From: Muribaculaceae bacterium Isolate-104 (HZI)
GTDB taxonomy: Bacteria > Bacteroidota > Bacteroidia > Bacteroidales > Muribaculaceae
Assembly: GCA_003762715.1 (NCBI GenBank)
Contig: RIBJ01000034.1
Span: 1-64,000 of the forward strand
DNA length: 64,000 nucleotides
Reading direction: 5' to 3'
In this document: one piece after another, positions 23,721 through 56,759 of the stretch
Layout: each line of letters begins with the position of its first letter
Numbering within the stretch: position 1 is the stretch's first letter
Translations under genes and position numbers: made by a program
Notes under the pieces: model-generated
Seen by the model: the letters and a program-made list of their open reading frames with translations, nothing else
Told to the model about the DNA's origin: nothing
The model's database searches: none

Positions 23721-23752
23721 TTTGGCAGAAAAGTACAAAACCCATATCTTTG
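23721..23752 (+). promoter_or_regulatory. Promoter of small RNA copy 1
   Basis: TTTG (23721-23724), 20-base spacer, TATCTTTG (23745-23752): full consensus. Confidence 0.75.
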
Positions 23753-23756
23753 CACC

Positions 23757-23820
23757 AGTTTTTCATGGTATTAGATTTAAGGTAAAAAGATTATTCGTCG
23801 TGATGACGAGTAATTTTTTT
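23757..23820 (+). ncRNA. Small RNA, copy 1 of a two-copy family
   Basis: Starts just after a full-consensus promoter and ends in a rho-independent terminator. The 5' part contains the 26 bases 23758-23783 (beginning GTTTTTCATGG), identical to copy 2 at 56694-56719. The 3' hairpin pairs 23790-23799 with 23805-23814 around GTGAT and runs into seven T. No reading frame of useful length starts inside it. It lies 240 bases upstream of gdhA, which has its own promoter at 23915, so it looks like an independent transcript of about 64 nucleotides rather than a leader. Function unknown; the shared single-stranded segment could be the target-pairing region. Confidence 0.72.
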
Positions 23821-23914
23821 GTTTTATACCCATCCCTCATACCAGCACCTCCACCGCAATGCCAGTCGACAAGTGTCATTTTGCAACAGATTTCAATAAA
23901 ATACTTACATTTAG

Positions 23915-23945
23915 TTGCAATTTCAAAAATTAGTATCTACTTTTG
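23915..23945 (+). promoter_or_regulatory. Promoter of gdhA
   Basis: TTG (23915-23917), 20-base spacer, TACTTTTG (23938-23945); leader of about 45 bases to the start codon. The palindrome TTGCAA occurs three times around it (23881, 23915, 23944). Confidence 0.7.
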
Positions 23946-23995
23946 CAACATCACGCTACGTCAGCGTATACTAACACTTACACATAGCTACTAAA

Positions 23996-25333
23996 ATGAA
24001 AGCATCAGAAATCATTGCAGACCTGAAAAGACGATTTCCCAACGAGCCGGAATACATACAGGCGGTAGAGGAAGTCGTGACATCTATTGAAGACACATAC
24101 AACGAGTACCCGGAATTTGAACGGTACAATCTTATAGAGCGCCTGTGCATTCCCGACAGAATATACTCGTTCAGAGTGTCTTGGGTAGACGACAGCGGAA
24201 AAGTGCAGAACAACATGGGCTACCGTATCCAGCACAACAACGCCATCGGTCCTTACAAAGGCGGCATCCGTTTCCACTCGTCTGTCAATCAGTCCATCCT
24301 AAAGTTCCTCGCCTTCGAGCAGACATTCAAGAACTCCCTGACCACCCTTGCCATGGGAGGTGCCAAAGGAGGCAGCGACTTCTCGCCAAGAGGCAAAAGC
24401 GACATGGAAGTAATGCGTTTTTGCCAGGCATTCATCAACGAGCTGTGGCGTGAAATCGGAGCCGACACGGATGTACCCGCCGGCGACATAGGTGTCGGAG
24501 GTCGCGAAGTCGGCTACATGTACGGACAATACAAAAAAATGGCGCGCGAAAACACCGGCACATTCACCGGCAAAGGCAGAGAATTCGGAGGCTCGCTAAT
24601 TCGCCCCGAAGCAACCGGCTACGGCAACGTCTATTTCCTGCTCAACATGCTTGCCACCAAAGGCATAGACATCAAAGGGAAACGTGTGGCGATTTCCGGC
24701 TCCGGCAACGTAGCCACATACACTGCCGAAAAGCTCCTTGAACTCGGAGCCGTTGTGGTGTCAATGAGCGACAGCGACGGCACAATCTATGTTCCGGACG
24801 GCATTTCACGCGAACAGCTCGACTATATTTTCAAACTCAAAAACATATACCGCGGCCGCATCAGGGAATTTGCCGAAGAATACGGCTGCGAGTACTACCC
24901 CGGCGAACGTCCGTGGATGAAAGTGAAATGCGACATCGCAATGCCCTCGGCAACACAGAACGAGATTGACGGTGACGACGCACGCGCCCTACTCGCACAA
25001 GGCTGCATAGCCGTAAGCGAAGGCGCAAACATGCCCTCTACCCCGGAAGCCATCAAAGAATTCCTCGCAGCAAGAATCCTTTACGCCCCCGGCAAGGCCG
25101 CCAATGCCGGCGGCGTGTCGGTGTCCGGACTCGAAATGGCACAAAATTCACAGAAACTCTCTTGGAGCGCCGCTGAAGTCGACGCAAAACTAAAAGACAT
25201 AATGTCTGAAATACACCACCAGTGCGAACTGTTCGGAAAAGAACAGGACGGATTTATAAACTATGTAAAAGGTGCCAATGTAGCCGGATTCATGAAAGTG
25301 GCGCGAGCTATGATGGCACAAGGCATCCTGTAA
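23996..25333 (+). CDS. gdhA: NADP-specific glutamate dehydrogenase
   Basis: 445-residue cytoplasmic enzyme of normal length for hexameric bacterial GDH; it interconverts 2-oxoglutarate plus ammonium and glutamate. The substrate-binding region shows GPYKGGIRFHSSV and the catalytic-lysine motif AMGGAKGGSDF; the Rossmann dinucleotide domain begins near residue 235 (VAISGSGNVATYTAEKL). In the nucleotide site the residues after beta-2 (SMSDSDG) fit the biosynthetic NADP type, which is inference. The gene is transcribed alone from a full-consensus promoter and followed by a strong terminator. Confidence 0.96.
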   Translation: MKASEIIADLKRRFPNEPEYIQAVEEVVTSIEDTYNEYPEFERYNLIERLCIPDRIYSFRVSWVDDSGKVQNNMGYRIQHNNAIGPYKGGIRFHSSVNQSILKFLAFEQTFKNSLTTLAMGGAKGGSDFSPRGKSDMEVMRFCQAFINELWREIGADTDVPAGDIGVGGREVGYMYGQYKKMARENTGTFTGKGREFGGSLIRPEATGYGNVYFLLNMLATKGIDIKGKRVAISGSGNVATYTAEKLLELGAVVVSMSDSDGTIYVPDGISREQLDYIFKLKNIYRGRIREFAEEYGCEYYPGERPWMKVKCDIAMPSATQNEIDGDDARALLAQGCIAVSEGANMPSTPEAIKEFLAARILYAPGKAANAGGVSVSGLEMAQNSQKLSWSAAEVDAKLKDIMSEIHHQCELFGKEQDGFINYVKGANVAGFMKVARAMMAQGIL

Positions 25334-25377
25334 AAAAGTGTGACTGCATAATACACAAATCTACATAAAACACGCTG

Positions 25378-25405
25378 ACCGCCGGTTTTTTTACCGGCGG
25401 TTTTT
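25378..25405 (+). terminator. Rho-independent terminator after gdhA
   Basis: Stem ACCGCCGGT / ACCGGCGGT with a T-rich loop, then TTTT. Confidence 0.9.
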
Positions 25406-25406
25406 G

Positions 25407-25414
25407 TATATTTG
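25407..25414 (+). promoter_or_regulatory. -7 promoter element for the GH20 gene
   Basis: TATATTTG, directly after the gdhA terminator and 25 bases before the ATG at 25440; it shows that the longer open frame from 25404 cannot be the gene start. Confidence 0.55.
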
Positions 25415-25439
25415 CGATATAATTCCCAACACCCTCCTA

Positions 25440-27449
25440 ATGAAAAAAATAATCAGTTCTTTTGTCCTTGTCGCCATGGCAATATACGCCAGTGCGTTAT
25501 CTGCCAGCGACTATCCGCTATTACCCAAACCTCAGACCATAGAATTCGGCAAATCCACATTCCGCATCAAAAACGCGTCCGTAGATATGCCCGCATGGCA
25601 GAAAACATGGGAATCCGAACTACAGTCTGCCGGAATAACACCCTCGCCAAAAGCAAGATTCTCCATAAAAGGCGAGATTGTCACATCCATTCCGGATGCG
25701 CCGGACAATAACGACGAAGCCTACTCCATGTCGGTGTCAGACAAAGGAATAAAAGTAAAAGCCGTTTCAGAAAAAGGCTTATACTGGGCTCTTCAGACCC
25801 TGATGCAACTTGCCAAAGACTCAGGCAAACTGCCGACATGCGAAATCATAGACTGGCCTGCGTTTCCCTGGAGAGGATTCATGATGGACACCGGGCGCTC
25901 GTACATCTCCCCCGAGGAGTTGAAACGCGAAATAAGCATTATGTCCCGTTTCAAGCTCAATGTCTTTCACTGGCATCTGACCGAAAACCAGGCATGGCGC
26001 CTTGAAAGCAAAATATTCCCCATGTTAAACGACAGCGTGAACATGGAGCGCCAGCCCGGTCTATACTACACCGTAGAGCAGGCAAAAGAAATCATGAAGT
26101 TTGCAAAAGACCATAATGTGCTTTTGATTCCGGAAATAGACATGCCCGGACACAGCGCCGCGTTCGTACGCACCTTTCGCCATGACATGCAGAGCCCGGA
26201 AGGCACCAAAATTCTCAAACTGCTTGTTGAAGAGGCTTGCGAAACCTTTGATTCCGTACCGTATCTGCACATCGGCACAGACGAAGTTCGCTTTACCAAC
26301 CCGGACTTTGTGCCCGACATGGTGTCATTCGTGAAATCCTTGGGTAAAAAAATAATATCCTGGAATCCCGGCTGGAACTACAACAAAGGCGATATAGACC
26401 TGACAACGATGTGGAGCTACAGAGGCAAACCGACTCCCGGCATTCCGGCAATCGACCTGCGCTACCACTACATAAACCACTTTGACATCTACGCCGACCT
26501 GATTGCACTGTACCGCAGCAACATATACGGGCAGAAAAAAGCCGGAGAGGGTATTGCCGGTGTGGAAATAGCACTTTGGAACGACCGCTACATAGACAAC
26601 GAGCAGTCGCTCATAGCCCAAAACTCGGTTTATACCGCAATGCTCGCCATAGCCGACCGCTCATGGAGAGGAGGCGGCGAAGAATATTTCGACAGACTCG
26701 GCACAAGGCTTAAGGAAAGCGAAACCGAGGATTTCGCCGATTTCACAGACTTTGAAAACCGCCTGCTATGGCATAAGGACCACACGCTCGATTCCATATT
26801 CATTCCATATGTACGGCAGACAAATGTAAAGTGGAGAATCACCGACCAGTTTCCCAACAATGGCAACCTGAGCGCAGTTTTCCCTCCGGAGACAGAGGGC
26901 CCGAAAGAATCATATACATACAACGGCACTGTCTACAATACCACCCCCGCCAACGGCGCAGGCATTTACCTCAGACATGTGTGGGGAGAATCGGTACCCG
27001 CTTTTTACGAAAAGCCCCTTCCGAACCACACGGCTTACGCTTACACATGGGTATATGCACCTCAAAAAATGGAAGTCGGACTTCAGGCAGAAACACAGAA
27101 TTACAGTCGTAGCGAAAGCGATTTGCCCCCGAAGCGCGGCAAATGGGACTACCGCGAAAGCAAATTCTGGATAAACGGCAAAGAGTTACCCGCTCCGGAA
27201 TGGACATCCGTTCACACAGAGCGCACCAATGAAATTACACTCGGAAACGAGAATTTTGCTGCACGTCCGGTGATTCCGGTAACCCTTGACAAAGGGTGGA
27301 ACCAGGTAATGATAAAATTGCCCGTCGGAAAATTCCAGGCACCTGAAACCAGACTTGTAAAATGGATGTTCTCATTTGTATTCACTACTCCTGACGGCAG
27401 ACATGCCGCTCCGGGGCTTATATACTCTCCAGACAAGCAACTGCAATAG
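25440..27449 (+). CDS. Secreted GH20 beta-N-acetylhexosaminidase
   Basis: 669-residue protein. The start at 25440 gives a signal peptide (KKIISSFVLVAMAIYASALS). GH20 N-terminal alpha/beta domain (about 20-130, PLLPKPQTIEFG) and TIM-barrel catalytic domain (about 135-460, WRGFMMDTGRSY, FHWHLTENQAWRLE). The catalytic Asp-Glu pair of the substrate-assisted mechanism is D281-E282 in HIGTDEVRF. The C-terminal 200 residues form an extra beta-rich domain (QFPNNGNLSAVFPPE, WNQVMIKLP) suggestive of carbohydrate binding. It would remove terminal GlcNAc/GalNAc from host mucin or other glycans. Monocistronic, with its own promoter and terminator; no SusCD nearby. Confidence 0.93.
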   Translation: MKKIISSFVLVAMAIYASALSASDYPLLPKPQTIEFGKSTFRIKNASVDMPAWQKTWESELQSAGITPSPKARFSIKGEIVTSIPDAPDNNDEAYSMSVSDKGIKVKAVSEKGLYWALQTLMQLAKDSGKLPTCEIIDWPAFPWRGFMMDTGRSYISPEELKREISIMSRFKLNVFHWHLTENQAWRLESKIFPMLNDSVNMERQPGLYYTVEQAKEIMKFAKDHNVLLIPEIDMPGHSAAFVRTFRHDMQSPEGTKILKLLVEEACETFDSVPYLHIGTDEVRFTNPDFVPDMVSFVKSLGKKIISWNPGWNYNKGDIDLTTMWSYRGKPTPGIPAIDLRYHYINHFDIYADLIALYRSNIYGQKKAGEGIAGVEIALWNDRYIDNEQSLIAQNSVYTAMLAIADRSWRGGGEEYFDRLGTRLKESETEDFADFTDFENRLLWHKDHTLDSIFIPYVRQTNVKWRITDQFPNNGNLSAVFPPETEGPKESYTYNGTVYNTTPANGAGIYLRHVWGESVPAFYEKPLPNHTAYAYTWVYAPQKMEVGLQAETQNYSRSESDLPPKRGKWDYRESKFWINGKELPAPEWTSVHTERTNEITLGNENFAARPVIPVTLDKGWNQVMIKLPVGKFQAPETRLVKWMFSFVFTTPDGRHAAPGLIYSPDKQLQ

Positions 27450-27470
27450 CTACAATTCCACCTCACACAC

Positions 27471-27504
27471 AATAGCCGGTTTGTTTACCAAGCCGGCTAT
27501 TTTT
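27471..27504 (+). terminator. Rho-independent terminator after the GH20 gene
   Basis: Stem AATAGCCGG / CCGGCTATT (27471-27479 with 27493-27501), then TTT. Confidence 0.82.
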
Positions 27505-27561
27505 GCATGGTGTTTTTATCTTTTAACTTATCTGTGTCACACTCTCGCCCATGCACAGATA

Positions 27562-27569
27562 TACCTTTG
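27562..27569 (+). promoter_or_regulatory. -7 promoter element for the 81-residue protein gene
   Basis: TACCTTTG, 27 bases before the ATG at 27597. Confidence 0.5.
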
Positions 27570-27596
27570 CCATACAAACAGCAAACACTTGTTATC

Positions 27597-27842
27597 ATGG
27601 CAACAATTCACTCTACCGACATTGTTTACGCAACAGTTTCACAACGCGGCAAAACCCTTACGTCAATAACTCTCAGCGGCATGACATCCATCGCCCAGAT
27701 TATAACCCACATAAGGAGTATTGTAAAAGACTCTATAGGAATATTCACACTTTCGCTGCGCAACAGCACACAAGGCTGGCTACAGGAGCGCAACATCATA
27801 CTCAAGCCGCGACCTGCCGCGACCCAACTAACACTATTCTAA
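27597..27842 (+). CDS. Small protein of unknown function (81 residues)
   Basis: I do not recognise this protein. The ATG at 27597 is chosen because a TAnnTTTG promoter lies just upstream; longer frames begin inside the preceding region. The sequence has no signal peptide or membrane helix. It starts with three predicted beta strands (IVYATVSQRGK, LTSITLSGM) and an amphipathic helix (IAQIITHIRSIVKD), followed by IFTLSLRNSTQGWLQER and a basic, proline-containing tail. Base composition and codon use resemble its neighbours. Its TAA stop is also the left target-site copy of the miniature element that begins at 27843. Confidence 0.65.
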   Translation: MATIHSTDIVYATVSQRGKTLTSITLSGMTSIAQIITHIRSIVKDSIGIFTLSLRNSTQGWLQERNIILKPRPAATQLTLF

Positions 27843-28026
27843 GAGTGTGTTTGAATTTAACACGAAGATATAATTCTGGATTTCTTTCTATCCCCTCAAA
27901 GGTCTTTTCGGGCGATCTTCGTCAAGTTTCATCGGTCACGATGCCCGCATCGCTCCCTCCTCAACTCACACAGATCTCTCCAAAAAATTCTCTTTGAGTG
28001 AACAGAAGTGAAATTAAAACACACTC
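27843..28026 (+). mobile_element. MITE-like element, copy C (184 bases)
   Basis: Inverted ends GAGTGTGTTT (27843) and AAACACACTC (28017-28026), extended inwards by AATTT/AAATT. TAA stands on both sides (27840-27842 and 28027-28029), as expected for a 3-base target duplication. Read on the minus strand, its interior matches the copies at 41892 and 42746: GAGGGAGC, a 5-base stem closing CGGG (CGATG/CATCG), GTGACCGATGA, and later AAAAGACCT. It contains no transposase, so it would depend on one supplied elsewhere. It sits between the stop of the 81-residue protein and the 3' end of the NlpC/P60 gene. Confidence 0.72.
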
Positions 28027-28039
28027 TAAAAAAAGGGAA

Positions 28040-28639
28040 TTACAGCTCCTCGCCAAGTACACGGCGCACTGAAATGAACCGTTTTGCGTAGTAAGCCGTA
28101 CCGGGATAGCTGTCAATCTGCACTCCGCGCGATGTCGATGCGTGTATGAACTTCACACTGCCATTCTCGGGATTGGACTCTATTACTATGCCCACATGAC
28201 CGATGCTCTTTCCAGCACGTCTTCCGGAAAAGAATATGAGATCGCCGGGCTGCGCCTCTTCTACCGATATCTGTGTACCCTGCGTACCCTGTGAACGGGA
28301 ATCTCTCCGCAGAGTCAGACCAAACTGACGAAACACATAGCTTGTGAAACCGGAACAGTCAAAAGCCTTTGGTCCGCTCGCTCCGAGACGGTAACGGGTA
28401 CCGATAAAATTCTGCGAGTAGCTGACCATATCATCTCTCAATGTCTCAAAATCGTCAAAATCATCGATTTTTTCTCCGAGAAGCTCCTCAAGAGTAGGCA
28501 TAATGTAGTCACCCGAACTTATGAAAGCCAGTTCATCGCCCTCCTTTTCGTTATTGTCAACAGACACAGCCGATGCCGGCACCGTTAACGACGCGGCAAA
28601 TGCAAGGGCAAGCGGTATGAAATATTTTGCAGATGACAT
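28040..28639 (-). CDS. Secreted NlpC/P60 (C40) cell-wall hydrolase
   Basis: 199-residue protein; the ATG at 28639 starts a signal peptide (SAKYFIPLALAFAASLTVPASA). An acidic linker (about 25-65) is followed by the NlpC/P60 domain with catalytic C95 in FDCSGF, H148 in IGHVGIV and third polar residue H166 in FIHAST. Such enzymes cleave the D-gamma-glutamyl-diaminopimelate bond in peptidoglycan peptides. An alternative start 30 bases upstream adds ten residues before the signal peptide and is disfavoured. It has its own promoter on the minus strand. Confidence 0.92.
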   Translation of the reverse strand: MSSAKYFIPLALAFAASLTVPASAVSVDNNEKEGDELAFISSGDYIMPTLEELLGEKIDDFDDFETLRDDMVSYSQNFIGTRYRLGASGPKAFDCSGFTSYVFRQFGLTLRRDSRSQGTQGTQISVEEAQPGDLIFFSGRRAGKSIGHVGIVIESNPENGSVKFIHASTSRGVQIDSYPGTAYYAKRFISVRRVLGEEL

Positions 28640-28656
28640 AATTACTATTTGCACTG

Positions 28657-28664
28657 CAAAATTA
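28657..28664 (-). promoter_or_regulatory. -7 promoter element for the NlpC/P60 gene
   Basis: TAATTTTG on the minus strand, 17 bases before the start codon. Confidence 0.5.
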
Positions 28665-29012
28665 ATCATTTACATCCTTTTATTCACATACTTGAATGCA
28701 ATGTATTAAGCAATAAATCCTTACATAATGTAATTGTTTGTTAACAGCAGCAATCAGCCGCGCCAAGACTATCACCTAACACTCTGAAATGCAAATAAAT
28801 AAGAGGCACAGCCTATGGTTGCCGCCTCTTATTTGTTAATATATGCAATAAATAGTATAAACATGTGCTAAAATTTAACAACTTAAGCTCCGCAAAACTA
28901 TGCTTACGCTATTGTCCTAATAATCAGAGCATACATCAAGACTCATGCACACCGCCATTGCCGAGTGTGCAAAAGTCCTTAACATTATTTTAGACACACG
29001 TCTGTAACACCG
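28665..29012. other. Intergenic region between the NlpC/P60 promoter and dxs-like gene
   Basis: AT-rich stretch without a supportable reading frame. It contains one strong hairpin (28797-28834). Nothing else recognisable was seen. Confidence 0.6.
28797..28834 (-). terminator. Hairpin, probable terminator of the dxs-like gene
   Basis: Perfect 11-base stem AAATAAGAGGC / GCCTCTTATTT with a 16-base loop; on the minus strand the stem ends in TTATTT. It is 180 bases past the stop codon of the dxs-like gene. Confidence 0.55.
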
Positions 29013-30773
29013 TCATAGCTTGCATAGCGATTTGAGCACATCGGAAGCTATCAACTCCGGACGCAGCCTCATGGCTTCAGCAAGCTCGGACGCATTATAA
29101 CGGTCGGCAAATTCTTTCTTCAGACCGTAGCACTTTATTTCCATGGGTTTGTCTCCATAAAATCGCGCTATTTTTTCACCAAAACCGCCGTCAAGCACAC
29201 CATCCTCCAGAGTAACCACCAGCCTGTGATTAGATTCAAGACTCTCAAGCAGCTCCATGTCAAGCCCGCTGAGGAATCTCGGATTTATGACTGTGACACC
29301 GACACCGTCTGCCGACAGCGCATCGGCGGTTTCCTGCGCAAGTCCGAAAAAGGCTCCCGCGCCTATTATAGCCACATCCTTGCCGCTGCGAACCACTTCG
29401 TATTTATTTAGGTCGGAATAGTCCGAGGGAAACTCCATGCCTGAGCAGACAACATTGCCGCCCGGCACCCTAACAGCTACGGGATATTCGTTTTGCTTCA
29501 CCGACCATCTCAGCATGGCGACATACTCTTCCTTGCAAGTTGGCGCAAGGTACACAAAACCGGGGATGTTGCTCACAAGGGCGATATCAAACCAACCTAG
29601 GTGGGTTACGTCATTCATACCGAACATCGTACCGTAAAATATCGGAATGCTTACAGGCGATCTGTTTATAGACACATCCTGCGACAGCTGGTCGTATGCC
29701 CTCTGCAAAAACGAGCTTACAACACAGAAACAGGGTTTCGCACCACCCTTTGCCATGCCTGACGCAAGCGCCACAGCCTCCTGCTCCGCGATTCCGACAT
29801 CTATAAACTGATGTCCGGCAGCCTTTCGTTTTTCGGAGGTAAAACCTATAGCTCCCGGAGTACCTGCGGTTATGGCAGCGACAGTCGGGTCATTTGCCAT
29901 CATATCGAGAAGCAAATCCGCAGTTATGTCGGTGTAGCTTTCATTCTCGTCAATATTGCGCGGATTGCCTGTCGCGATATCAAACGGCGCGGTATAGTGG
30001 AAGCGCTCCCTCTCAGCTTCGGCAGGAGCATAGCCCTTGCCTTTTTGTGTGCAAATGTGCAGAACAACAGGATGGTCAATGTCTTTGACGCTCTCAAACA
30101 CCTCTATAAGGGTAGCGATGTCGTTGCCATAACTGACATAACGGTAGTCAAAGCCCATGGTTTTGAAAAAATTGAGTTCGGCGCTGCCATCGCTTTTTCT
30201 CAACAGTCTCAGATTGGCGTATATACCACCCTCATTTGGCGCGATACTCATATCGTTGTCATTGACTATGACAATCATATTGCTGCGGAGAGTGGCAGCG
30301 AAATCAAGCCCTTCGAATGCCTCTCCGCCGCTGAGCGACCCGTCTCCAACCACTGCTATGATATTCTCTTTGTCACCCCTGAGGTCGCGGGCAACGGCAA
30401 GTCCGCCTGCAAGGCTCACAGCCGTGGAGGTATGACCGATAGTGAAAAAATCATGCGCGCTCTCCGCAGGATTGGTGTATCCGCTGACATCTCCGTAATG
30501 CGATGGCTGTGTGAAAGCATCCATTCTGCCTGTCAGCATTTTGTGAGCATAGCACTGATGCGATACATCAAACACTATTTTGTCTGTCGGACTATCGAAA
30601 ACATAGTGCATTGCTATAGTCATTTCGACCATACCGAGATTGGGACCGACATGACCGCCCCTGATACTGAGCTTGCCCAGCAGAGCCTCGCGCATCATGG
30701 CGGCGAGCTTTTTCAACTCGTCTATTGACAAACCCTTTATATCTGCCGGTGAATGAATATCGTTCAGATTCAT
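29013..30773 (-). CDS. 1-deoxy-D-xylulose-5-phosphate synthase-like enzyme (divergent)
   Basis: 586-residue thiamine-diphosphate enzyme of the DXS/transketolase family, somewhat shorter than canonical DXS (about 620-640). Conserved: H41 in RGGHVGPNLG, the TPP motif GDGSLSGG (143-150) with NDNDMSI, SFLQRAYDQ, and H391 in NDVTHLG. Divergent: canonical DXS has AEQH and RAGxxGxDGxTHxG, whereas here residues 329-332 are AEQE and the loop reads YGTMFGMNDVTHLG. It may make DXP for isoprenoids and thiamine/pyridoxal, or act on a related acceptor as a paralog. It is monocistronic; the start ATG at 30773 is followed at once by a normal N-terminal helix. Confidence 0.8.
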   Translation of the reverse strand: MNLNDIHSPADIKGLSIDELKKLAAMMREALLGKLSIRGGHVGPNLGMVEMTIAMHYVFDSPTDKIVFDVSHQCYAHKMLTGRMDAFTQPSHYGDVSGYTNPAESAHDFFTIGHTSTAVSLAGGLAVARDLRGDKENIIAVVGDGSLSGGEAFEGLDFAATLRSNMIVIVNDNDMSIAPNEGGIYANLRLLRKSDGSAELNFFKTMGFDYRYVSYGNDIATLIEVFESVKDIDHPVVLHICTQKGKGYAPAEAERERFHYTAPFDIATGNPRNIDENESYTDITADLLLDMMANDPTVAAITAGTPGAIGFTSEKRKAAGHQFIDVGIAEQEAVALASGMAKGGAKPCFCVVSSFLQRAYDQLSQDVSINRSPVSIPIFYGTMFGMNDVTHLGWFDIALVSNIPGFVYLAPTCKEEYVAMLRWSVKQNEYPVAVRVPGGNVVCSGMEFPSDYSDLNKYEVVRSGKDVAIIGAGAFFGLAQETADALSADGVGVTVINPRFLSGLDMELLESLESNHRLVVTLEDGVLDGGFGEKIARFYGDKPMEIKCYGLKKEFADRYNASELAEAMRLRPELIASDVLKSLCKL

Positions 30774-31013
30774 AATTCAAAAATTGGAATAAATATTTTC
30801 ATTTGAGAGGTGTCCGCCGGCATAACAACGGCATTGCCCACAACATACTGACGTTAAACAAAAACCGGCACAACGGGGTTCACCCGGCGCAAAATTAATT
30901 AAAAATCATGAACGATAAGACAAAACAACTATACACCCGCATATACGGCGAACATTTCAATGCTCCCCGGCGTTTTACAGTCAAACAGACATACGAATTA
31001 AATAACTGGTATT

Positions 31014-31175
31014 ATGGACAAATATGTATGCGAAGTATGCGGCTGGGTGTATGACCCTGCAGTAGGAGACCCTGAAAACGGGATAGCTCCCGGAACATCT
31101 TTCGAAGATTTGCCAGCCGACTGGGTATGCCCATTATGCGGTGTTGGCAAAGACGAGTTCGTCCCTGAAAAGTGA
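31014..31175 (+). CDS. Rubredoxin
   Basis: 53-residue protein too short for many gene callers. It has both iron-binding knuckles: C6-x-x-C9-G ([12 protein letters not shown]) and C39-x-x-C42-G ([13 protein letters not shown]), plus the conserved [11 protein letters not shown] and DLPADW segments. A single Fe(Cys)4 site transfers one electron in the cytoplasm, often to peroxide- or superoxide-reducing enzymes in anaerobes. It is monocistronic and followed by a strong terminator. A 47-residue frame starting at 30908 overlaps its start and was not accepted. Confidence 0.95.
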
Positions 31176-31200
31176 CAATGACTTACACCGTATTTGCACA

Positions 31201-31239
31201 AAGTCTCTGCGCCGGAGCGGCGCAGAGACTTTGTTTTTT
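31201..31239 (+). terminator. Rho-independent terminator after rubredoxin
   Basis: Thirteen-base stem AAGTCTCTGCGCC / GGCGCAGAGACTT, followed by TTGTTTTTT. Confidence 0.92.
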
Positions 31240-31264
31240 AAGTGCAGTACAACAAACTCTACCG

Positions 31265-31296
31265 CAAAAAAGTACCGCCGGGAATTTCCCGGCGGT
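31265..31296 (-). terminator. Rho-independent terminator after rpsP
   Basis: Stem ACCGCCGGGAA / TTCCCGGCGGT (31274-31296); on the minus strand it is followed by ACTTTTTT. Confidence 0.88.
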
Positions 31297-31322
31297 GCTA
31301 TGTTTCTGTCGCATCGAAATGA

Positions 31323-31880
31323 TTACTCTGCGCCTGCAGGAGCTTCTTCGGCTGCGGGAGCCTCGGCTGCTTCTGCCTCAGCCCTTGCAGCTGCTTCCGC
31401 TTCGGCTTTAGCAGCGGCTATTTCAGCTTTCTTTTTAGCTACGATTTCAGCTTTAGCTTTGTTTTTTGCCTCTTCGTCAGCCAAACGCTGTTTTGCTTCG
31501 AGTTCTTTACGGTCTGCCATAGATGAGCGCAATGCGTCTACAGCTGCCTGTTTTTTGTTTTTCCAAGCCTCGAAACGACGCTGAGCCTCAGCTTCGTCAA
31601 ATGCGCCTTTCTTTACGCCACCCTGAAGGTGCTTCATCAGGAGGACGCCCTCTTTGGAGAGGATGCTGCGCACTGTATCTGTGGGCTGAGCGCCTACATT
31701 AATCCAATACAAAGCCCGTTCGAAGTTCAATGTTATTGTAGCAGGATTAGTGTTCGGATTATAAGAACCTATCCTTTCAATAAATTTACCATCTCGTGGT
31801 GCCCTGCTATCGGCGATAACAATAGGATAGAACGCGTAGTTTTTACGACCATGACGCTGCAGTCTGATTTTTGTTGCCAT
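31323..31880 (-). CDS. rpsP: 30S ribosomal protein S16 with long C-terminal extension
   Basis: 185-residue protein. The first about 85 residues are S16 ([59 protein letters not shown]). The remaining about 100 residues form a charged, Ala/Glu/Lys-rich helix ([19 protein letters not shown]) ending in an Ala/Glu/Pro-rich low-complexity tail. Such an extension is seen in S16 of many Bacteroidetes; E. coli S16 has about 82 residues. S16 binds 16S rRNA in the body of the small subunit. It is transcribed alone here, not with rimM/trmD as in E. coli, with a TACCTTTG promoter upstream and a strong terminator downstream. Confidence 0.97.
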
Positions 31881-31927
31881 TATAAAAAATGTCGGTTAAA
31901 ATTTGGTTTTGTATGGTTTTGCGGCTG

Positions 31928-31935
31928 CAAAGGTA
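31928..31935 (-). promoter_or_regulatory. -7 promoter element for rpsP
   Basis: TACCTTTG on the minus strand, 47 bases before the start codon. Confidence 0.6.
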
Positions 31936-32010
31936 GTATTTATTTTTCTAATTTGCCACAACTCAGCTGATTTTTATCTTTTTTTCTCAGCAATCGGCAA
32001 TAGAACTTGT

Positions 32011-32604: not shown

Positions 32605-32624
32605 ATTCCAAAAAATTTTCGGAG

Positions 32625-49243: not shown

Positions 49244-49311
49244 CCTGACTGTTACACAACATTACCGCCGCCGGTTAAAACAAAATAAACATTTGTGCGG
49301 TTTTATTTACA

Positions 49312-49331
49312 GAGTCCTCGGCAGAGGACTC
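49312..49331 (+). other. Hairpin in the lptD-tamB gap
   Basis: Perfect eight-base stem GAGTCCTC / GAGGACTC with a GGCA loop, 26 bases before the tamB start chosen here. No T run follows, so it is more likely a leader or processing structure than a terminator. Confidence 0.5.
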
Positions 49332-49357
49332 ATGCAATTCATCATATTTTCTATTTT

Positions 49358-52300
49358 GTGGCACATAATCTGACATCAAAAATCTTTAGAATCATAGTCT
49401 GGGTCATCATATCCCTGGTGGCGCTTGTATTTATGGCTGTCGGTGCGCTCTACATCCCGGCGGTTCAGACTATGGTCAAGGATTTCGCTCTTGAAAAAAT
49501 AAACCAAAGCACAGGCATGAACATCTCTGCCGGAAATTTTCGCCTGCGCTTTCCTCTTGACCTGTCTCTTTCCGATGTCTCGGCTCTTGAAGCATCGGGC
49601 GACACTATGGCGACTCTCGGCTCCATGACTGTGAGCGTAAAATTGCTTCCGCTGCTCAAAGGCGACATAAGCGTCTCTGCCGCAAAAGCAACCAACGTGT
49701 TCTATGCACTCGGCAATCCCGACTCCGCCATGATGCTGAGAGCACGCATCAGAGATTTCTCACTTGACGCAGCGGGCATGAACCTGCTCACAAACAACAT
49801 AGACCTTGAAAAAGCTGAAGTAAACGGCGCCGATGTCACCATTCTGTTCAACGACTCCATCACCTCTGCCGCCGACACTTCATCCTCCAAACCGTCACCC
49901 CTGAAAATCAAAGCCTCTGAAATAAAGCTCACCGACATTACCTACCGCATGCGCATGATGCCGGTAATTGACTCGCTTTCAGCATCAGTACCGCAGGCAC
50001 TGCTGTCAGACGCATCGATAGACATGGGTACAAAACGCATCCATGCCGCCGCACTGTCGGTCGACTCGGTAAACGCCGTCTATCTCACGCCCTCTGCCGA
50101 ATACACCTCGGCACACCCCGCGTCTGTCGACACCGTCACGACCTCTGAGCCGGACACCGCCGCCGCTGCATGGACAGTAACGGCAGGCTCACTGCACCTG
50201 TCCGGGAAAAAAGCCGTCTATGCGATGCGTGGAGCTGCCCCGCTGCCCGGGCTTGACATGAACTACCTTCAGGCATCAGCCATCGAAATAGATGTGGATT
50301 CATTCTACAACCGGGGAGCTTCAATAACCGTGCCGCTGAAAAAACTTTCCGCGCGCGAACGGTGCGGCATAATCCTGTCCGCTTACGGAACCTTTTCCAT
50401 GGACTCTGTGCTGATGAAAGCCTCTGACTTCAGATTGTCCACTCTCTTTTCAGACATACACCTTGATGCGGCTATGGGCATCGGAAACCTGACCTCCGAC
50501 CGCACCCTGCCGCTGCACCTGTCCGCTTCCGGCTCCGTAGCGCTTGCCGACGCAGCCCTCGCTTTCCCAGCCATGGCACCTGTGCTGCGACAGCTGCCAA
50601 GCACTGACATGGCTATAAATGCCGACATCAGCGGCACTTCCGGCACCCTGTCTGTAAACGATTTATCCGCCAGACTGCCTCGGTTTGCGACCATCTCCGC
50701 AAAAGGCTCTGTAAACAACCCCTTCGACTTCGACAACATGTCAGGGCGCATAGGCATTGACTGCTCTATGACCGGCTTGAACGTCCAGAAACCCACTCTG
50801 CTTGAAGCAAAAATAGCCAAAGAAATAAACATTCCTGCAATGACATTAAAGGGAGCGGTAAACTACAACCCCGGAACCGTCAGCGGAAACCTCGCAATGA
50901 CTGCTGCCGGCGGCAGACTGGCTCTGAAAGCCCTGTGGAAAGAAAAAAGGCAAGGCTATGACGCCGAACTTACTCTCGACAGCTTCCCTGTTAACGCCTT
51001 CATGCCCTCTCTCGGCGTAGGTGAAATATCCGCCTCACTGTCAGCCCGAGGCTCTGGGCTTGACATACTGTCGCCGAACACAGCCGCCAATATTTCGCTT
51101 GACATTGAAAACGCGGAATATCTTCAGAAACACTACTCCGGAATAACGGCAGACATTTCTCTTGAAAACTCTCACGCATCCGGCTCCGTTGTAAGCAATA
51201 ACGAAGCTGCAGACTTCGACATAGACCTTGCCGCCGAACTTTCGCGCCAAGGCTACTCATGGGACATTGACGGACATGTCAACCACCTGGACCTGCATGC
51301 CTTGCAGCTCACTCCCGAAGCAAACTCCGGGAGCGTATCCCTGAAAAGCACCGGCTTCATGAGCGCCGATGCAAAAAACATAAACGCAGTAGCCACACTC
51401 ACTTCAATCGACTGGGAATTGGGCGAGAGACAAATATACTCAAAAGAAGCATCCGTCGAGTTCGCTACTTCCGACTCCGCTACATCAGCCACTCTTACCA
51501 CAGGCGACCTGCTCGCCAGGGCTGCCTCACCGGTGTCGCTTGACTCGCTCCTGGCGCGCATACCTCTGGCAACAGCCGCTATCGACACTGCTATCGCCAC
51601 AAAAAACATAGACATTGTGGCTCTCCAGCGCTCATTGCCGCAAATAAACGTCGAACTCAACTCCGGTCCTTCAAACTTCATTGCCGAATACCTCGCCCAG
51701 ACAGGCACCTCGTTCAAATCAGCAAAAGCCTCATTCTCAAACGACTCCCTCATTAGCATATCTGCCGGGGTGTTGTCTCTCCAAGCAGGTGACACCCGCT
51801 TGGACACCATATCCTTCGGAGCTGTGCAGCACGGCAAATACCTCGCATACAAAGGCGCGGTAAACAACCGTCCCGGAACACTGGACCAGTTCGCCCATGT
51901 CAACCTCACCGGATTTGTCGCCGACGACAAAGTCGCTATGCTCCTTTCTCAGAAAAACATCAGCGGCGAACGCGGATTTCTCCTCGGGCTAAACGCCGCC
52001 ATGACCGATTCCGTCGCCACAGTACGTTTTGTGCCTTACACCCCTACTATCGGCTACAAAAAATGGGAACTGAACAAAGACAACTTCATATCCTACAACT
52101 TCACGACACGGCACATTGACGCGAATCTTGCAATGAACAGCGGCAATAGCATCATTCGGATATTCACCGAGCATGTCGACGGTCGCCCCGAAGAGCAGGA
52201 GGACCTTGTTGTGAGTCTATCCGACATACGGATTCAGGACTGGCTCTCCATATCGCCGTACGCACCGCCGGTAAAAGGCAACCTCGGAGCCGACATGCGC

Positions 52301-54187
52301 ATCCACTGGAACCGAGAACAGCTCACCGGCAACGGCACCGTCGCCCTCTCCGACCTCTACTACGGCAGAGACCGCGTAGGCTCTTTTGACATAGGAGTGG
52401 ATGTGTCTGCCGAAAGCAACGGCAGGCTCCGTGCCGAAGCATCGCTGCTGGTCGACAGCATCAAGGTCATAACCGCAAACGGGGTGCTGAACGACACAGC
52501 ATCCGCCACTCCATTCATGCTCGACTTCTCGATGATTCACTTCCCGCTTAGAATCGCTAACCCGTTCCTGCCCAAGGAATACGCAAGCCTTTCGGGTATG
52601 CTTAACGGACAAATGGACATAACCGGCAGCCTGACAGCACCGATATTCAACGGCTACCTTGACTTCGACAGCACACAAGTGACAGTAGGTATGCTCGGCT
52701 CGTCATTCAGATTCTCCGAAACAAAAATTCCGGTCGACAGCAGTGTGGTGCGTTTCAACGACTTCTCTATCTCAGCCCTGAACGAAAACCCGCTGAGAGT
52801 AAACGGCACTGTAGACCTGAGAGAACTCTCAGCAATGAAACTGGACCTGAGCCTCAAGGCGTCAGACATGCAGATTGTCAACTCAACCCGCCCCAAAAAA
52901 GCCGACGTTTACGGAAAAGCGTTCATAGATGTCGACACAAAAGTGCGAGGAGGCATGTCGCTGCTTGACGTAGACGCAAAACTCAGACTGCGCGCGCCCT
53001 CCAACATAACATACATAATGACCGACGCCCAAAGCGCATTGACATCCCAGTCAACCGGCGACATGGTTCGGTTCGTACAGTTTGCCGACACGACCGCAGT
53101 CGCTGCCGCCGACACAGTAAAGAACAACGACATGGCGCTGAACCTCAACGCCGAGCTTACAATAGCCCAGGGAACAACTATAAATGTCGACCTGTCCACC
53201 GACGGCAAAAACAAAGTGTCAGTGCTCGGTCAAGGCACACTCGACTTCAGTATGACCCCGTTCAATGACTCCCGCCTGACAGGACGTTTCAACATAAACG
53301 GAGGCTTCGTGCGCTACACCCCGCCGCTGATGTCGGAAAAACTGTTCAACTTCAAAGAAGGCAGCTTCATATCCTTCACCGGCGACATGCTCAACCCCAT
53401 ACTGAACATACAGGCGGTAGACCGGCTCAAGGCAAATGTTACACAGCAGGGACAAAACTCAAGGCTGATAGACTTCGACGTGACCCTGTCCGTTACCAAC
53501 ACACTGCAAAACCTCAACGTGGCTTTTGACCTGTCAACCTCCGATGACATAACCGTTGAAAACGAACTCGCCTCCATGAGTCCGGACCAGAGAGCTAACC
53601 AGGCCATGAACCTGCTGCTCTACAACGTCTACTCCGGACCCGGCACTAAGGCAAACACCAACCTCAGCGGCAACCCCCTCTACTCTTTCCTTGAGTCGCA
53701 GATAAACTCTTGGGCGGCAAACAACATAAAAGGTGTCGACATTTCATTCGGCATTGACCAGTACGACAAGACCACCGACGGGGTGTCGCAGCAGACCACA
53801 AGCTACAGCTACCGTGTGTCAAAGACCCTGTTCAACGACCGCTTCAAGATTATTGTAGGCGGCAACTACTCCACCGATGCAAACTCCGACGAGAATTTCT
53901 CAGAAAATCTCATTAACGACATCGCGTTCGAATACATGCTCAACAAAAGCGGCTCCATGTATGTGAGACTGTTCCGCCACACCGGCTACGAAAGCATTCT
54001 CGAAGGCGAGATAACACAGACAGGCGTCGGATTCGTGCTCAGACGCAAAGTCAACTCCCTGCGTGACCTCTTCCGCTGGGTAGGACGCCTCAGAAACTCT
54101 ATTGCCGGCAACAACAGAAAAAAAGATGCCGAAACTGTTGAAAACACACAAAAAACTTCTGAAAATGAAACTACGACTGCCCGGTAA
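49358..54187 (+). CDS. tamB: TamB-like translocation and assembly protein (DUF490/AsmA-like)
   Basis: About 1609 residues. One N-terminal membrane anchor (about 10-32, IVWVIISLVALVFMAVGALY) is followed by a very long periplasmic beta-rich body with AsmA-like N terminus and the TamB/DUF490 C-terminal domain (about 1350-1560, NGGFVRYTPPLMSEKLF, TSDDITVENELASM, NLLLYNVYSG). TamB bridges the periplasm and works in outer-membrane protein insertion or phospholipid transport. The start is uncertain: GTG at 49358 avoids the hairpin at 49312-49331; an earlier GTG at 49295 would add 21 residues. Its 3' end overlaps the TamA gene by 23 bases, the conserved TamA-TamB pairing. Confidence 0.88.
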   Translation: MAHNLTSKIFRIIVWVIISLVALVFMAVGALYIPAVQTMVKDFALEKINQSTGMNISAGNFRLRFPLDLSLSDVSALEASGDTMATLGSMTVSVKLLPLLKGDISVSAAKATNVFYALGNPDSAMMLRARIRDFSLDAAGMNLLTNNIDLEKAEVNGADVTILFNDSITSAADTSSSKPSPLKIKASEIKLTDITYRMRMMPVIDSLSASVPQALLSDASIDMGTKRIHAAALSVDSVNAVYLTPSAEYTSAHPASVDTVTTSEPDTAAAAWTVTAGSLHLSGKKAVYAMRGAAPLPGLDMNYLQASAIEIDVDSFYNRGASITVPLKKLSARERCGIILSAYGTFSMDSVLMKASDFRLSTLFSDIHLDAAMGIGNLTSDRTLPLHLSASGSVALADAALAFPAMAPVLRQLPSTDMAINADISGTSGTLSVNDLSARLPRFATISAKGSVNNPFDFDNMSGRIGIDCSMTGLNVQKPTLLEAKIAKEINIPAMTLKGAVNYNPGTVSGNLAMTAAGGRLALKALWKEKRQGYDAELTLDSFPVNAFMPSLGVGEISASLSARGSGLDILSPNTAANISLDIENAEYLQKHYSGITADISLENSHASGSVVSNNEAADFDIDLAAELSRQGYSWDIDGHVNHLDLHALQLTPEANSGSVSLKSTGFMSADAKNINAVATLTSIDWELGERQIYSKEASVEFATSDSATSATLTTGDLLARAASPVSLDSLLARIPLATAAIDTAIATKNIDIVALQRSLPQINVELNSGPSNFIAEYLAQTGTSFKSAKASFSNDSLISISAGVLSLQAGDTRLDTISFGAVQHGKYLAYKGAVNNRPGTLDQFAHVNLTGFVADDKVAMLLSQKNISGERGFLLGLNAAMTDSVATVRFVPYTPTIGYKKWELNKDNFISYNFTTRHIDANLAMNSGNSIIRIFTEHVDGRPEEQEDLVVSLSDIRIQDWLSISPYAPPVKGNLGADMRIHWNREQLTGNGTVALSDLYYGRDRVGSFDIGVDVSAESNGRLRAEASLLVDSIKVITANGVLNDTASATPFMLDFSMIHFPLRIANPFLPKEYASLSGMLNGQMDITGSLTAPIFNGYLDFDSTQVTVGMLGSSFRFSETKIPVDSSVVRFNDFSISALNENPLRVNGTVDLRELSAMKLDLSLKASDMQIVNSTRPKKADVYGKAFIDVDTKVRGGMSLLDVDAKLRLRAPSNITYIMTDAQSALTSQSTGDMVRFVQFADTTAVAAADTVKNNDMALNLNAELTIAQGTTINVDLSTDGKNKVSVLGQGTLDFSMTPFNDSRLTGRFNINGGFVRYTPPLMSEKLFNFKEGSFISFTGDMLNPILNIQAVDRLKANVTQQGQNSRLIDFDVTLSVTNTLQNLNVAFDLSTSDDITVENELASMSPDQRANQAMNLLLYNVYSGPGTKANTNLSGNPLYSFLESQINSWAANNIKGVDISFGIDQYDKTTDGVSQQTTSYSYRVSKTLFNDRFKIIVGGNYSTDANSDENFSENLINDIAFEYMLNKSGSMYVRLFRHTGYESILEGEITQTGVGFVLRRKVNSLRDLFRWVGRLRNSIAGNNRKKDAETVENTQKTSENETTTAR

Positions 54188-56468
54188 CCCGATACCTGCC
54201 GTACTGTGCATGACTATAGCACTGCTGCTCTCTGCCTCCTGCTCCACGACAAGACGCATTGCCGACGACGAGATGCTGTACACCGGTGTCAAAAAAATCG
54301 ACATACGCACACCTCATGGCACTTCCCAGGCTCCCGGGCTCGCCGCCGATGTCAAAAACGCGGTCAATGTGGCGCCTAACAACTGCCTGATTTCGCCGTA
54401 TCTGCGTTACCCCTTCCCTCTCGGGCTGTGGGTGTACAACAACTGGAGCAACCCGCCCAAAGGCTTCAGGCACTGGCTATACGAAAAGCTCGTGAGCGAG
54501 CCGGTGCTCATCAGCGACGTGCGCCCGGAAGTGCGCACAAAAATGATTGACGAAATACTTGACAACCACGGCTATTTCAGCGGTTCTGCCTCCTACGAGC
54601 TTCTCAAAGGCAAGAACCCCAAAAAAGCCCGAATACTCTACACGGTAAACACCGGACCCGCCTATACCATTGACTCCGTGCAGCTGCTGCCCGACACCTG
54701 CCGGCTGTTTCACCTCGTCGACTCCATAGCTAAAAAAGGCACCTATCTGCGACAGGGAGCAAGATACGACACCGACTCGCTTTCAGCCGAAAGAGTGCGC
54801 ATAGCCAACGCCGTGCGCAACCGGGGCTACTACTTTTTCAAGCCCGACTACATAGAGTACCTTGCCGACAGCACAATAACGCCAGGCAAAATAGCCCTGA
54901 GAATGACCGTTGCGGCAAACACTCCCAAGGGAGCGCTGACTCCGTGGCGCACAGGCTCAATAACCACGCTGATAAACCGCAACAGAGGCGGAGGAGTGCC
55001 TGACACCACCGAAACACGAAGGGGCGACCTTATTGTAATGGAGCCCACACGCCTGCGCAAAAAACTCATTACAGAGTGTATCACATTTCGCAAAGGCAAG
55101 ACATTCTCTGTCCGCGACATGAACAGCACCCAGACCTACCTGTCGCGAACCGGAATTTTCAGCGGCATAGAAATCAACGCATTCCCTGACACCACAGACG
55201 GCAAACGCAACCTTGACGTATTCATAAGCTGCACGGTTGACGCTCCTATCGAAGCATCTCTTGAGGTGAATGTCACATCCAAGTCCAACAGCTACCTCGG
55301 TCCCGGACTGATGTTCGGAGTTACCAACCGCAACATTTTCGGCGGCGGAGAGCAGCTCAGCGTCAACCTCACCGGCAGCTACGAATGGCAAACCGGCAGA
55401 GACAAAGACAAATCACTGTTCAACTCTTACGAAGTGGGGCTCACCACCACACTCGCTTTTCCGCGCCTGCTTTTTCCCGGCTTTGTCGCCCGCTCGCGGC
55501 GCAACCTCAACTGGACACGCATCGCTTTAAACGCCGACCTGCTCAACCGTCCACACTACTTCCGCATGGCACAGTTCAACGGCTCGCTGAACTACGACTG
55601 GCGCATAAACCGCCACGCGAGCAACACACTGACCCTGTTCAAGCTCACGTACACGAAACTGATGAACTCCACCACCGAGTTCGACTCCATAATGCACGAA
55701 AACCCGGCGATAGCCGAGAGCTTCCGCAGCCAGTTCATTCCGCAGATTGCCTACAACTTTCTGTATGACAAAGCGTTTGACAGAGACAACTCCATAAACT
55801 GGCAGTTTACCGTTCAGGAAGCCGGCAACATCTTCTGGGGCATTTATGAGCTTTGCGGCAAAAAAGATGAGAAAAAACTATTCGGCACACCTTTCTCACA
55901 GTTCGTCAAGGGCAGCACACAGCTTGTGTACAACCGGCGTCTGTGGGGCGACAACTGGCTTGTGACCAGAGCCGCCGTCGGAGCCGCCCACGCCTACGGC
56001 AACGCCTCACAGGTGCCATACAGCGAACAGTTCTATGTCGGCGGCGCCAACTCCATAAGGGCATTCACCGTAAGGAGCATCGGACCGGGCAGCTACAGAG
56101 TGCCGCAAAACCTCATAAACGGCTACTTTGACCAGACAGGCACATTCAAGTTTGAATTCAACGTAGAGTACCGTTTTCCAATATACGGCCCGCTGCACGG
56201 CGCTCTGTTTTTCGACTCAGGCAATGTGTGGCTGCTGAAAGATGACCCTCTGCGTCCGGGCGGCAAGCTCAAAGGCAAATCATTTCTCCGCGACCTCGCA
56301 ACAGGCACCGGCTGCGGACTGCGTCTCGACATTGGCATGCTTGTTATTCGCGGCGACCTCGGAGTGGGCATACATCTGCCTTACAACACCGGCAAACGAG
56401 GCTACTACAACATGACATCGTTTAAGAACTCACTCGCGTTTCATCTCGCAATAGGCTACCCCTTCTGA
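54165..56468 (+). CDS. tamA: TamA-like BamA/Omp85 outer-membrane protein (lipoprotein)
   Basis: 767-residue protein. The ATG at 54165 gives a lipoprotein signal (IALLLSASC, Cys26); the open frame from 54102 lies inside tamB and is rejected. POTRA-like domains occupy about 30-370 (YTGVKKIDIRTP, NTGPAYTIDSVQLL, RTGIFSGIEINAFP), then the Omp85 barrel (FGVTNRNIFGGGEQLSVNL, FYVGGANSIRAFTVRSIGPG with the conserved RG-like turn, ending FHLAIGYPF with terminal Phe). Together with TamB it should form the TAM complex. A lipidated Omp85 protein is unusual outside Bacteroidetes. It closes the outer-membrane assembly block. Confidence 0.87.
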   Translation: MKLRLPGNPIPAVLCMTIALLLSASCSTTRRIADDEMLYTGVKKIDIRTPHGTSQAPGLAADVKNAVNVAPNNCLISPYLRYPFPLGLWVYNNWSNPPKGFRHWLYEKLVSEPVLISDVRPEVRTKMIDEILDNHGYFSGSASYELLKGKNPKKARILYTVNTGPAYTIDSVQLLPDTCRLFHLVDSIAKKGTYLRQGARYDTDSLSAERVRIANAVRNRGYYFFKPDYIEYLADSTITPGKIALRMTVAANTPKGALTPWRTGSITTLINRNRGGGVPDTTETRRGDLIVMEPTRLRKKLITECITFRKGKTFSVRDMNSTQTYLSRTGIFSGIEINAFPDTTDGKRNLDVFISCTVDAPIEASLEVNVTSKSNSYLGPGLMFGVTNRNIFGGGEQLSVNLTGSYEWQTGRDKDKSLFNSYEVGLTTTLAFPRLLFPGFVARSRRNLNWTRIALNADLLNRPHYFRMAQFNGSLNYDWRINRHASNTLTLFKLTYTKLMNSTTEFDSIMHENPAIAESFRSQFIPQIAYNFLYDKAFDRDNSINWQFTVQEAGNIFWGIYELCGKKDEKKLFGTPFSQFVKGSTQLVYNRRLWGDNWLVTRAAVGAAHAYGNASQVPYSEQFYVGGANSIRAFTVRSIGPGSYRVPQNLINGYFDQTGTFKFEFNVEYRFPIYGPLHGALFFDSGNVWLLKDDPLRPGGKLKGKSFLRDLATGTGCGLRLDIGMLVIRGDLGVGIHLPYNTGKRGYYNMTSFKNSLAFHLAIGYPF

Positions 56469-56656
56469 CCCGGCGCGAGGGATATGTTAACCTATGCAAA
56501 CGAAGCCACCGCGCGCAATGTCCCTCCGGTGCAGCCAGCAGATAGCAAATTTCTGCAATTCGCCCGTAATTCAGGCAATTTGCCACCAATTTCGCCGATA
56601 AAAGACACCTTCTCTGCAAAATAACGTTAACCGCATGCAATTTTCTTTACATGTTC

Positions 56657-56687
56657 TTGCATGAAATTTGCTTAATCCCTAATTTTG
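56657..56687 (+). promoter_or_regulatory. Promoter of small RNA copy 2
   Basis: TTG (56657-56659), 20-base spacer, TAATTTTG (56680-56687): full consensus. Confidence 0.72.
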
Positions 56688-56691
56688 CATC

Positions 56692-56759
56692 GTGTTTTTC
56701 ATGGTATTAGATTTAAGGTTAATGAAGATTGATTGTCGCGATGACAGTCAATTTTTTTT
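56692..56759 (+). ncRNA. Small RNA, copy 2 of a two-copy family
   Basis: Same design as 23757-23820: after a full promoter comes the identical 26-base segment (56694-56719), then a hairpin pairing 56728-56737 (ATTGATTGTC) with 56743-56752 (GACAGTCAAT) around GCGAT, then eight T. Four of the ten stem pairs differ from copy 1, each preserving pairing (for example G-C for A-T and T-A for C-G). It stands in a gap between convergent genes and cannot be the leader of any gene, which argues for an independent transcript of about 68 nucleotides. Confidence 0.75.

Follow-up and report, generated by a model that had tools for sequence, protein, structure and literature searches.

Identity of the two loci

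Does a short unit that occurs twice in one stretch of DNA, each time with its own promoter-like sequence, the same 5′ segment and a terminator hairpin, belong to one of the small RNA (sRNA) families published for Bacteroides? The stretch is the 64,000-nucleotide (nt) window analyzed here, and the letters of both units were read directly. The comparison with Rfam that the original prediction had called for (release 15) matched both copies to RF04319, BTncRNA_FopS ("family of paralogous sRNAs"), with 77.2 bits for copy 2 and 61.4 bits for copy 1 at a cut-off of 56 bits. The answer is therefore yes: judged by their letters, the two loci are FopS sRNA genes, new members of a published family and ordinary as to kind. 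The idea of a regulatory sRNA family is supported by this identity; the target-binding role proposed for the shared segment is known from B. thetaiotaomicron only and would apply here by analogy. The units and the gene beside copy 1 are as follows.

23721..23752, + strand: copy 1 promoter (−33 TTTG at 23721-23724, 20-base spacer, −7 TATCTTTG at 23745-23752)
23756..23823, + strand: FopS copy 1 (RF04319, 61.4 bits)
23758..23783, + strand: shared unpaired block of copy 1, holding the FopS seed, same letters as in copy 2
23790..23820, + strand: copy 1 terminator (ten pairs, 23790-23799 with 23805-23814, then a T run)
23915..23945, + strand: −33/−7 promoter-like site before gdhA, past the copy 1 terminator (TTG at 23915-23917, TACTTTTG at 23938-23945)
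23996..25333, + strand: open reading frame (ORF) 3′ of copy 1, putatively gdhA, the glutamate dehydrogenase gene
56657..56687, + strand: copy 2 promoter (−33 TTG at 56657-56659, 20-base spacer, −7 TAATTTTG at 56680-56687)
56692..56761, + strand: FopS copy 2 (RF04319, 77.2 bits)
56694..56719, + strand: shared unpaired block of copy 2, holding the FopS seed, same letters as in copy 1
56728..56759, + strand: copy 2 terminator (ten pairs, 56728-56737 with 56743-56752, then a T run)

Each part that had been foreseen (promoter, 26 identical bases, variable link, ten-pair hairpin and T run) was found in its place. Both promoters have letters of the sigma-ABfr type, TTTG or TTG followed by a 20-base spacer and TAnnTTTG. 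The −7 box is separated from the shared 26 bases by five bases in copy 1 and six in copy 2, and the shared block from the hairpin by six and eight bases, respectively. As the original prediction held, the stems differ at four pairs and pairing is kept throughout, all ten pairs being standard with one G-U wobble in each copy. Copy 2 indeed lies between convergent genes (the ORF on the + strand ends at 56468, the one on the − strand at 56899) and is thus no leader. The 23-base core of the shared block occurs at two places in the window without mismatch, and at none in 100 dinucleotide shuffles with up to three mismatches allowed. The two predicted transcripts fold better than their shuffles (z −4.34, 0/200 as good; z −2.53, 3/200 as good), and the best fold of each leaves the 5′ 27-28 bases unpaired ahead of a stable 3′ hairpin.

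FopS was described in B. thetaiotaomicron by Ruttiger et al. 2025 (PMC11697453), and a second paper on this sRNA is PMC12119571. The former deals with Bacteroidaceae and gives 14 copies for B. thetaiotaomicron, within a published range of 12-15. The unpaired 5′ seed, R1′, pairs with susC start regions near the start codon and blocks translation initiation in vitro, a block that the RRM protein RbpB relieves by counteracting FopS (PMC11697453). The two loci of the window are very probably free-standing FopS genes whose products would block some outer-membrane uptake mRNAs in the same way. Each would yield a unit of ∼65-70 nt from its own predicted −33/−7 promoter, with a conserved unpaired 5′ seed and a covarying terminator hairpin. 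By analogy, the B. thetaiotaomicron mechanism is our best guess for the window copies: their seed would pair near the start codons of some uptake mRNAs and prevent initiation.

Conservation of the seed and covariation of the stem

The family alignment comprised 63 distinct sequences from 61 loci, chosen with up to four mismatches to the seed and drawn for the most part from the loci that scored highest. Duplicate rows were removed, as were those lacking a T run within 71 bases, and a diverged fourth copy of the window genome (in locus L004) was left out. The 20 bases CATGGTATTAGATTTAAGGT are identical in 60/63 sequences and carry one-base variants in the other three, a conservation that is flattered because the sequences were chosen by likeness to the seed. 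In the ten-pair stem, 94.0% of cells are paired, compared with a shuffled mean of 87.5% that no shuffle of 500 raised to this value. Changes that preserve pairing in further copies, which the original prediction had set as a test, were found: 39 stem cells are changed on both sides versus 5.0 in shuffles, and 7 of the 10 pairs show such a change. Five stem measures all exceed slid controls, with 0, 1, 0, 15 and 0 of 500 shuffles reaching them, and RNAalifold alone predicted eight of the ten pairs. Pairing is weakest at the three outermost positions of the stem, where 8, 21 and 9 of the sequences are unpaired. The −7 motif TAnnTTTG is present in 68 of the 69 FopS promoters fetched.

Copy number and spread

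The window genome apparently belongs to Muribaculaceae, as judged from the relatives of gdhA. By title, the nearest of these are Barnesiella sp. and an uncultured Porphyromonadaceae (97% identity), followed by Paramuribaculum sp. (95%); many of the 80 relatives fetched are titled Muribaculaceae, Duncaniella or Muribaculum, and a few titles (e.g., Lachnoclostridium) are evidently wrong. Two sets of genomes were drawn: 149 from the window genome's family (itself included, the family name being the one just given) and 237 from its order, four of them from its own family. FopS matches at E ≤ 0.01 were present in 149/149 genomes of the family draw (141/149 above the cut-off) and in 63/237 of the order draw (43/237 above the cut-off).

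The window genome itself has four FopS-like copies, three of them above the cut-off. The fourth (L004:1470-1580; G000:C79:45980-46052, − strand) is diverged, with a changed seed, another terminator and 51 bits, below the required 56. The subtype seen beside gdhA (CAGTTTTTC..., stem ATTATTCGTC) is also found, slightly altered, in 4/80 gdhA loci (L060, L061, L062 and L085), where it lies about 300 to 770 bases upstream of gdhA. In L063 it lies past gdhA on the opposite strand. The other 75 loci contained no FopS with up to four mismatches to the seed within the fetched stretch, and some of these stretches are short.

Pairing of the seed with susC starts

The target set of the window genome comprised 337 gene starts from 400 kb of stretches plus the window, among them nine susC starts (TIGR04056 above its cut-off); starts were taken as first ATGs, so that some are wrong, and one of the nine (L191) appears to lie inside the gene. 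The best site, at −15.2 kcal/mol, belongs to the susC gene of contig C22; measured against dinucleotide-shuffled seeds, its p is 0.007. The seed contains UUUUUCAU, complementary to AUGAAAAA, and with UUUUUCAU kept in the shuffles p is 0.017. As a class, the nine susC starts do not stand out convincingly from the 328 others in dinucleotide z (p = 0.047; p = 0.14 with UUUUUCAU kept).

In the family, 30 susC loci were taken, one per genome from 30 genomes, as best matches of the C22 protein. Their mean pairing energy is −9.65, reached by 1/500 dinucleotide shuffles of the seed and by 11/500 with UUUUUCAU kept. The 328 other starts of the window genome also beat most shuffles (3/150 as good; 10/150 with UUUUUCAU kept), and the 30 family starts are better than these (energy p = 0.008, z p = 0.001; p = 0.07 with UUUUUCAU kept). 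With the window genome's own gene removed, the z comparison gives p 0.003, or 0.11 with UUUUUCAU kept.

Several observations weigh against extending the B. thetaiotaomicron mechanism to the window copies. Part of the seed pairing is plain complementarity to AUGAAAAA. In pairing energy, the nine susC starts of the window genome are not clearly better than the 328 others (p = 0.46), and one of these nine genes, C22, pairs strongly with the seed. The C22 site is weak (−8.5) in the G105 relative, which is 75% identical; the G143 relative (67% identical) is uninformative because its called start lies inside the gene. A search of the window genome for a 19-base part of the seed complement with up to three mismatches returned only the four FopS loci and two places with three mismatches. 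The 30 family loci are interrelated, and all but one come from genomes other than that of the control starts. Finally, both units are known here from sequence alone. Pairing in the 30 family loci lends moderate support to susC targeting by FopS in the family, weakened by the kinship of the loci, rough start calls and controls from unmatched genomes.

Other explanations for the two units

The units might be relics, or mere terminators with promoter-like sequence, that spread as repeats and have no regulatory role here. Their multi-copy spread, the published FopS copy located in a phage (PMC11697453) and the weak target enrichment in the window genome would suit this explanation. So would one of three seed copies that stand in a row in a relative (L144:942-1740; G290:C124), the third of which, at 1665, lacks both TAnnTTTG and a terminator-like T run. 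Relics would not be expected to keep the seed so strongly conserved with covarying stems over 63 sequences, the −7 motif in 68/69 promoters and matches in every genome of the family draw, and we regard this explanation as quite improbable. A short peptide read from the ATG inside the seed (MVLDLR...) is hardly credible. Both copies do have five more sense codons after that ATG; across the alignment, 41 frames have no stop within the stretch and the other 22 terminate after 6, 10, 13, 14, 15 or 19 residues, and the letters are conserved without the synonymous drift of a coding sequence. A conserved small ORF in the seed frame was accordingly rejected, the frame after the seed not being conserved, and for B. 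thetaiotaomicron FopS the authors likewise excluded small ORFs (PMC11697453).

For copy 1 there is the further alternative of a 5′ leader or attenuator of gdhA with no action in trans, a suggestion invited by its position, on the strand of gdhA and about 170 bases ahead of that gene, and by the four loci in which the same subtype precedes gdhA. Copy 1 need not be a leader because a separate promoter-like site lies between its strong terminator and gdhA. The L063 subtype past gdhA on the other strand, together with copy 2, which has the same structure and no downstream gene in its reading direction, also argues against a leader. This alternative is not favored and appears very unlikely. Free-standing FopS genes remain the preferred explanation for both loci.

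FopS in genomes without a detectable RbpB-type protein

No match to PF00076 (RRM_1) at E ≤ 0.001 was found in the window genome, and none in 147 of the 149 family genomes, the window genome included. The 110 better genomes were all negative, whereas Bacteroides ihuae, used as the control, gave a match. The two positive family genomes are those of L140 (G027) and L141 (G004). Both are under 90% complete, so that their RRM_1 matches perhaps reflect contamination or a deep branch. In the order draw, RRM_1 was found in 163/237 genomes. Among the 43 order-draw genomes with FopS at E below 1e-6 (lists combined by hand, and taken for the set above the Rfam cut-off, which also numbers 43), 25 gave an RRM_1 match and the other 18 did not, so FopS is retained in genomes in which no RRM_1-type protein was found.

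Because nearly all Muribaculaceae genomes yielded no RRM_1 protein, FopS in this family most likely would act without an RbpB antagonist. Its presence in 149/149 genomes, 147 of them without detectable RRM_1, suggests an RNA able to function in the absence of RbpB and marks out Muribaculaceae as a natural RbpB-free test system for FopS. This setting goes beyond what was found in print.

A Cur-type palindrome in FopS promoters of relatives

The promoter comparison covered 69 distinct FopS promoters, retrieved independently of any palindrome; three are from the window genome. The palindrome TATGTTnTAnAACATA, with up to two mismatches, is present in 30/69, whereas 500 shuffles gave a mean of 0.22 and at most 2. 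It equals, letter for letter, the published consensus site of BT4338, now Cur, a master sugar regulator (wwwTATGTTnTAnAACATAwww; PMC3878776); a Cur site has been confirmed at fusA2 by deletion and chromatin immunoprecipitation (PMC6989115). In 29 of the 30 palindrome promoters, the distance between the palindrome start and the −7 box is 23-27 bases. A TTG at −33 is present in 3/29 of these versus 36/39 of the others with a −7 box (Fisher p 2.5e-12, a value that is too small because the promoter sequences are related). In 30/69 FopS promoters, a candidate Cur-type site thus appears to replace the −33 box. Palindrome-bearing promoters are found in L005-L034 and L142-L169, e.g., L016, L031, L153 and L157. 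PM2, a near-palindromic promoter with elements centered at −10 and −30 (PMC7366714), was compared by description only and not adopted as the palindrome's identity, given the exact agreement with the Cur consensus.

The palindrome is absent from all four FopS copies of the window genome (best 6-7 mismatches; 7 for copy 1, 6 for copy 2). The three exact palindromes of the searched form in this genome (G000:C6:16974, C22:45557 and C33:44116) begin 116 to 178 bases ahead of called susC starts (116, 161 and 178 bases for C22, C33 and C6), and the C22 palindrome also precedes a divergent ORF. In this genome, Cur-type sites thus stand before three susC genes and before none of the FopS copies. In relatives, Cur-type sites precede genes with domain matches to EF-G, aldose epimerase and GntR. 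These are the same kinds of gene as fusA2, araM and the fuc operon of B. thetaiotaomicron, which are named with Cur (PMC6989115, PMC3878776, PMC10994844).

One group of CRP-family proteins is common to all seven genomes compared, with 54-89% identity, and was found at E ≤ 1e-30 in 135/149 family genomes and 108/110 of the better ones. This group would hold the putative Cur orthologues. The candidate Cur of the window genome, C76, has 2gau as its nearest solved structure (E 4.5e-62) and no NCBIfam match above a cut-off. A one-mismatch site lies 34 bases before its start, and BT4338 is reported with a site before its own gene (PMC3878776); the best upstream site has at least three mismatches in 5/7 genomes, which speaks against general Cur autoregulation.

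Two further places behind Cur-type palindromes were noted. L284 (G018:C27) has near-identical FopS-like units with a changed seed at 1721 and 6016, about 4.3 kb apart, and L270:2030 (G033:C4) is a glutamate-dehydrogenase-like gene with the palindrome 82 bases before its start and a −7 box spacing of 38.

Direction of a possible control by Cur

Spacing was surveyed at 99 palindrome places (≤1 mismatch) on both strands. On the 180 non-FopS sides, −7 boxes numbered 9 at 46-52 bases (0.78 expected), 5 at 23-27 bases (0.56 expected), 9 at 53-65 bases (1.45 expected) and 2 to 4 in the remaining bins (0.78 to 1.01 expected); all six bins exceed expectation, since the background was taken over entire loci with their genes. 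Per base, the bins at 46-52 and 23-27 are the highest. The former spacing holds for the GntR gene, with the other genes there being sugar-uptake-, glycosidase- or LacI-like by reading only; the latter holds, outside FopS, for an acyl-transferase gene. Six short fragments were scanned against Pfam, and four had no match. On FopS sides, 17/18 boxes lie at 23-27 bases, in a set partly fetched via the palindrome. In FopS promoters, the gap between the Cur-type site and the −7 box is shorter by about 25 bases than for the main group of other such sites.

A regulator site over the −33 region usually represses. Repression of the palindrome-bearing FopS copies by Cur is favored, and we consider it somewhat probable, because the site lies over −33, FopS falls about 3-fold on high-mannose glycan relative to glucose (PMC11697453) and glucose silences Cur (PMC10294740). 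Activation by Cur is the alternative, and a reasonable possibility if the less probable one: the −33 TTG is missing from the palindrome promoters, which would suit dependence on an activator, and there is the precedent of MasB, a Cur-regulated sRNA that is activated (PMC10994844). The induction of FopS by bile salts (PMC11697453) is explained by neither direction.

With repression by Cur as the favored direction, we tentatively propose that FopS is a second arm of Cur, which would control it directly, most likely as a repressor, in a coherent feed-forward loop. Cur would repress about four in ten of the fetched FopS genes while activating uptake operons. Glucose would silence Cur, transcription of polysaccharide utilization loci would stop, and FopS, once released, would keep the susC mRNA still present from being translated. 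In Muribaculaceae, the loop would run without RbpB.

Relation to published work

The main text of PMC11697453 raises a possible further transcriptional regulator of FopS and leaves its identity open; BT4338, Crp and palindromes do not occur there, and Cur, among the passages listed, is named for a comparison of colonization. A literature search of main texts found no paper joining FopS, Cur, sRNA and Bacteroides, and such a link may be in a supplement. FopS does not occur in the main texts of PMC12596196 and PMC10861873. Some sRNAs are listed near BT4338 binding sites (BTnc140, BTnc195 and BTnc364; PMC10294740), and a FopS may be among them. The Cur-type promoter class of FopS thus goes beyond what was found in print. 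The site in 30/69 promoters offers a testable candidate for the unnamed regulator, and a Cur-FopS link, if true, would connect the glucose response with the control that an sRNA exerts on susC translation.

Comparison with known systems

MasB of B. thetaiotaomicron is the precedent for a Cur-controlled sRNA that represses an mRNA (PMC10994844). It is another RNA, and the window copies have no Cur-type site in their promoters; the sites described here belong to FopS relatives. GibS of B. thetaiotaomicron (Ryan et al. 2020, PMC7366714) has the R1 part of the seed in common, according to PMC11697453, but differs in its second seed, R2, and its PM2 promoter (PMC7366714, PMC11697453), whereas the window copies have ordinary −33/−7 promoters and score above the FopS cut-off. 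With B. thetaiotaomicron FopS, the window copies share a score above the Rfam cut-off, the 5′ seed, the type of terminator, the −33/−7 promoter and the multi-copy state. They differ in belonging to Muribaculaceae rather than to the Bacteroidaceae of the publication; in numbering 4 in their genome rather than 12-15; in that no RRM_1 protein was found in this genome, the partner RbpB being known from Bacteroides as a component of the B. thetaiotaomicron circuit and having no place in Rfam's definition of the family; and in the gdhA-linked subtype, with its changed stem and a 5′ end of CAGTTTTTC in place of GTGTTTTTC. Beyond family membership, what these loci add is a setting without detectable RbpB and, in their relatives, a Cur-type class of FopS promoters.

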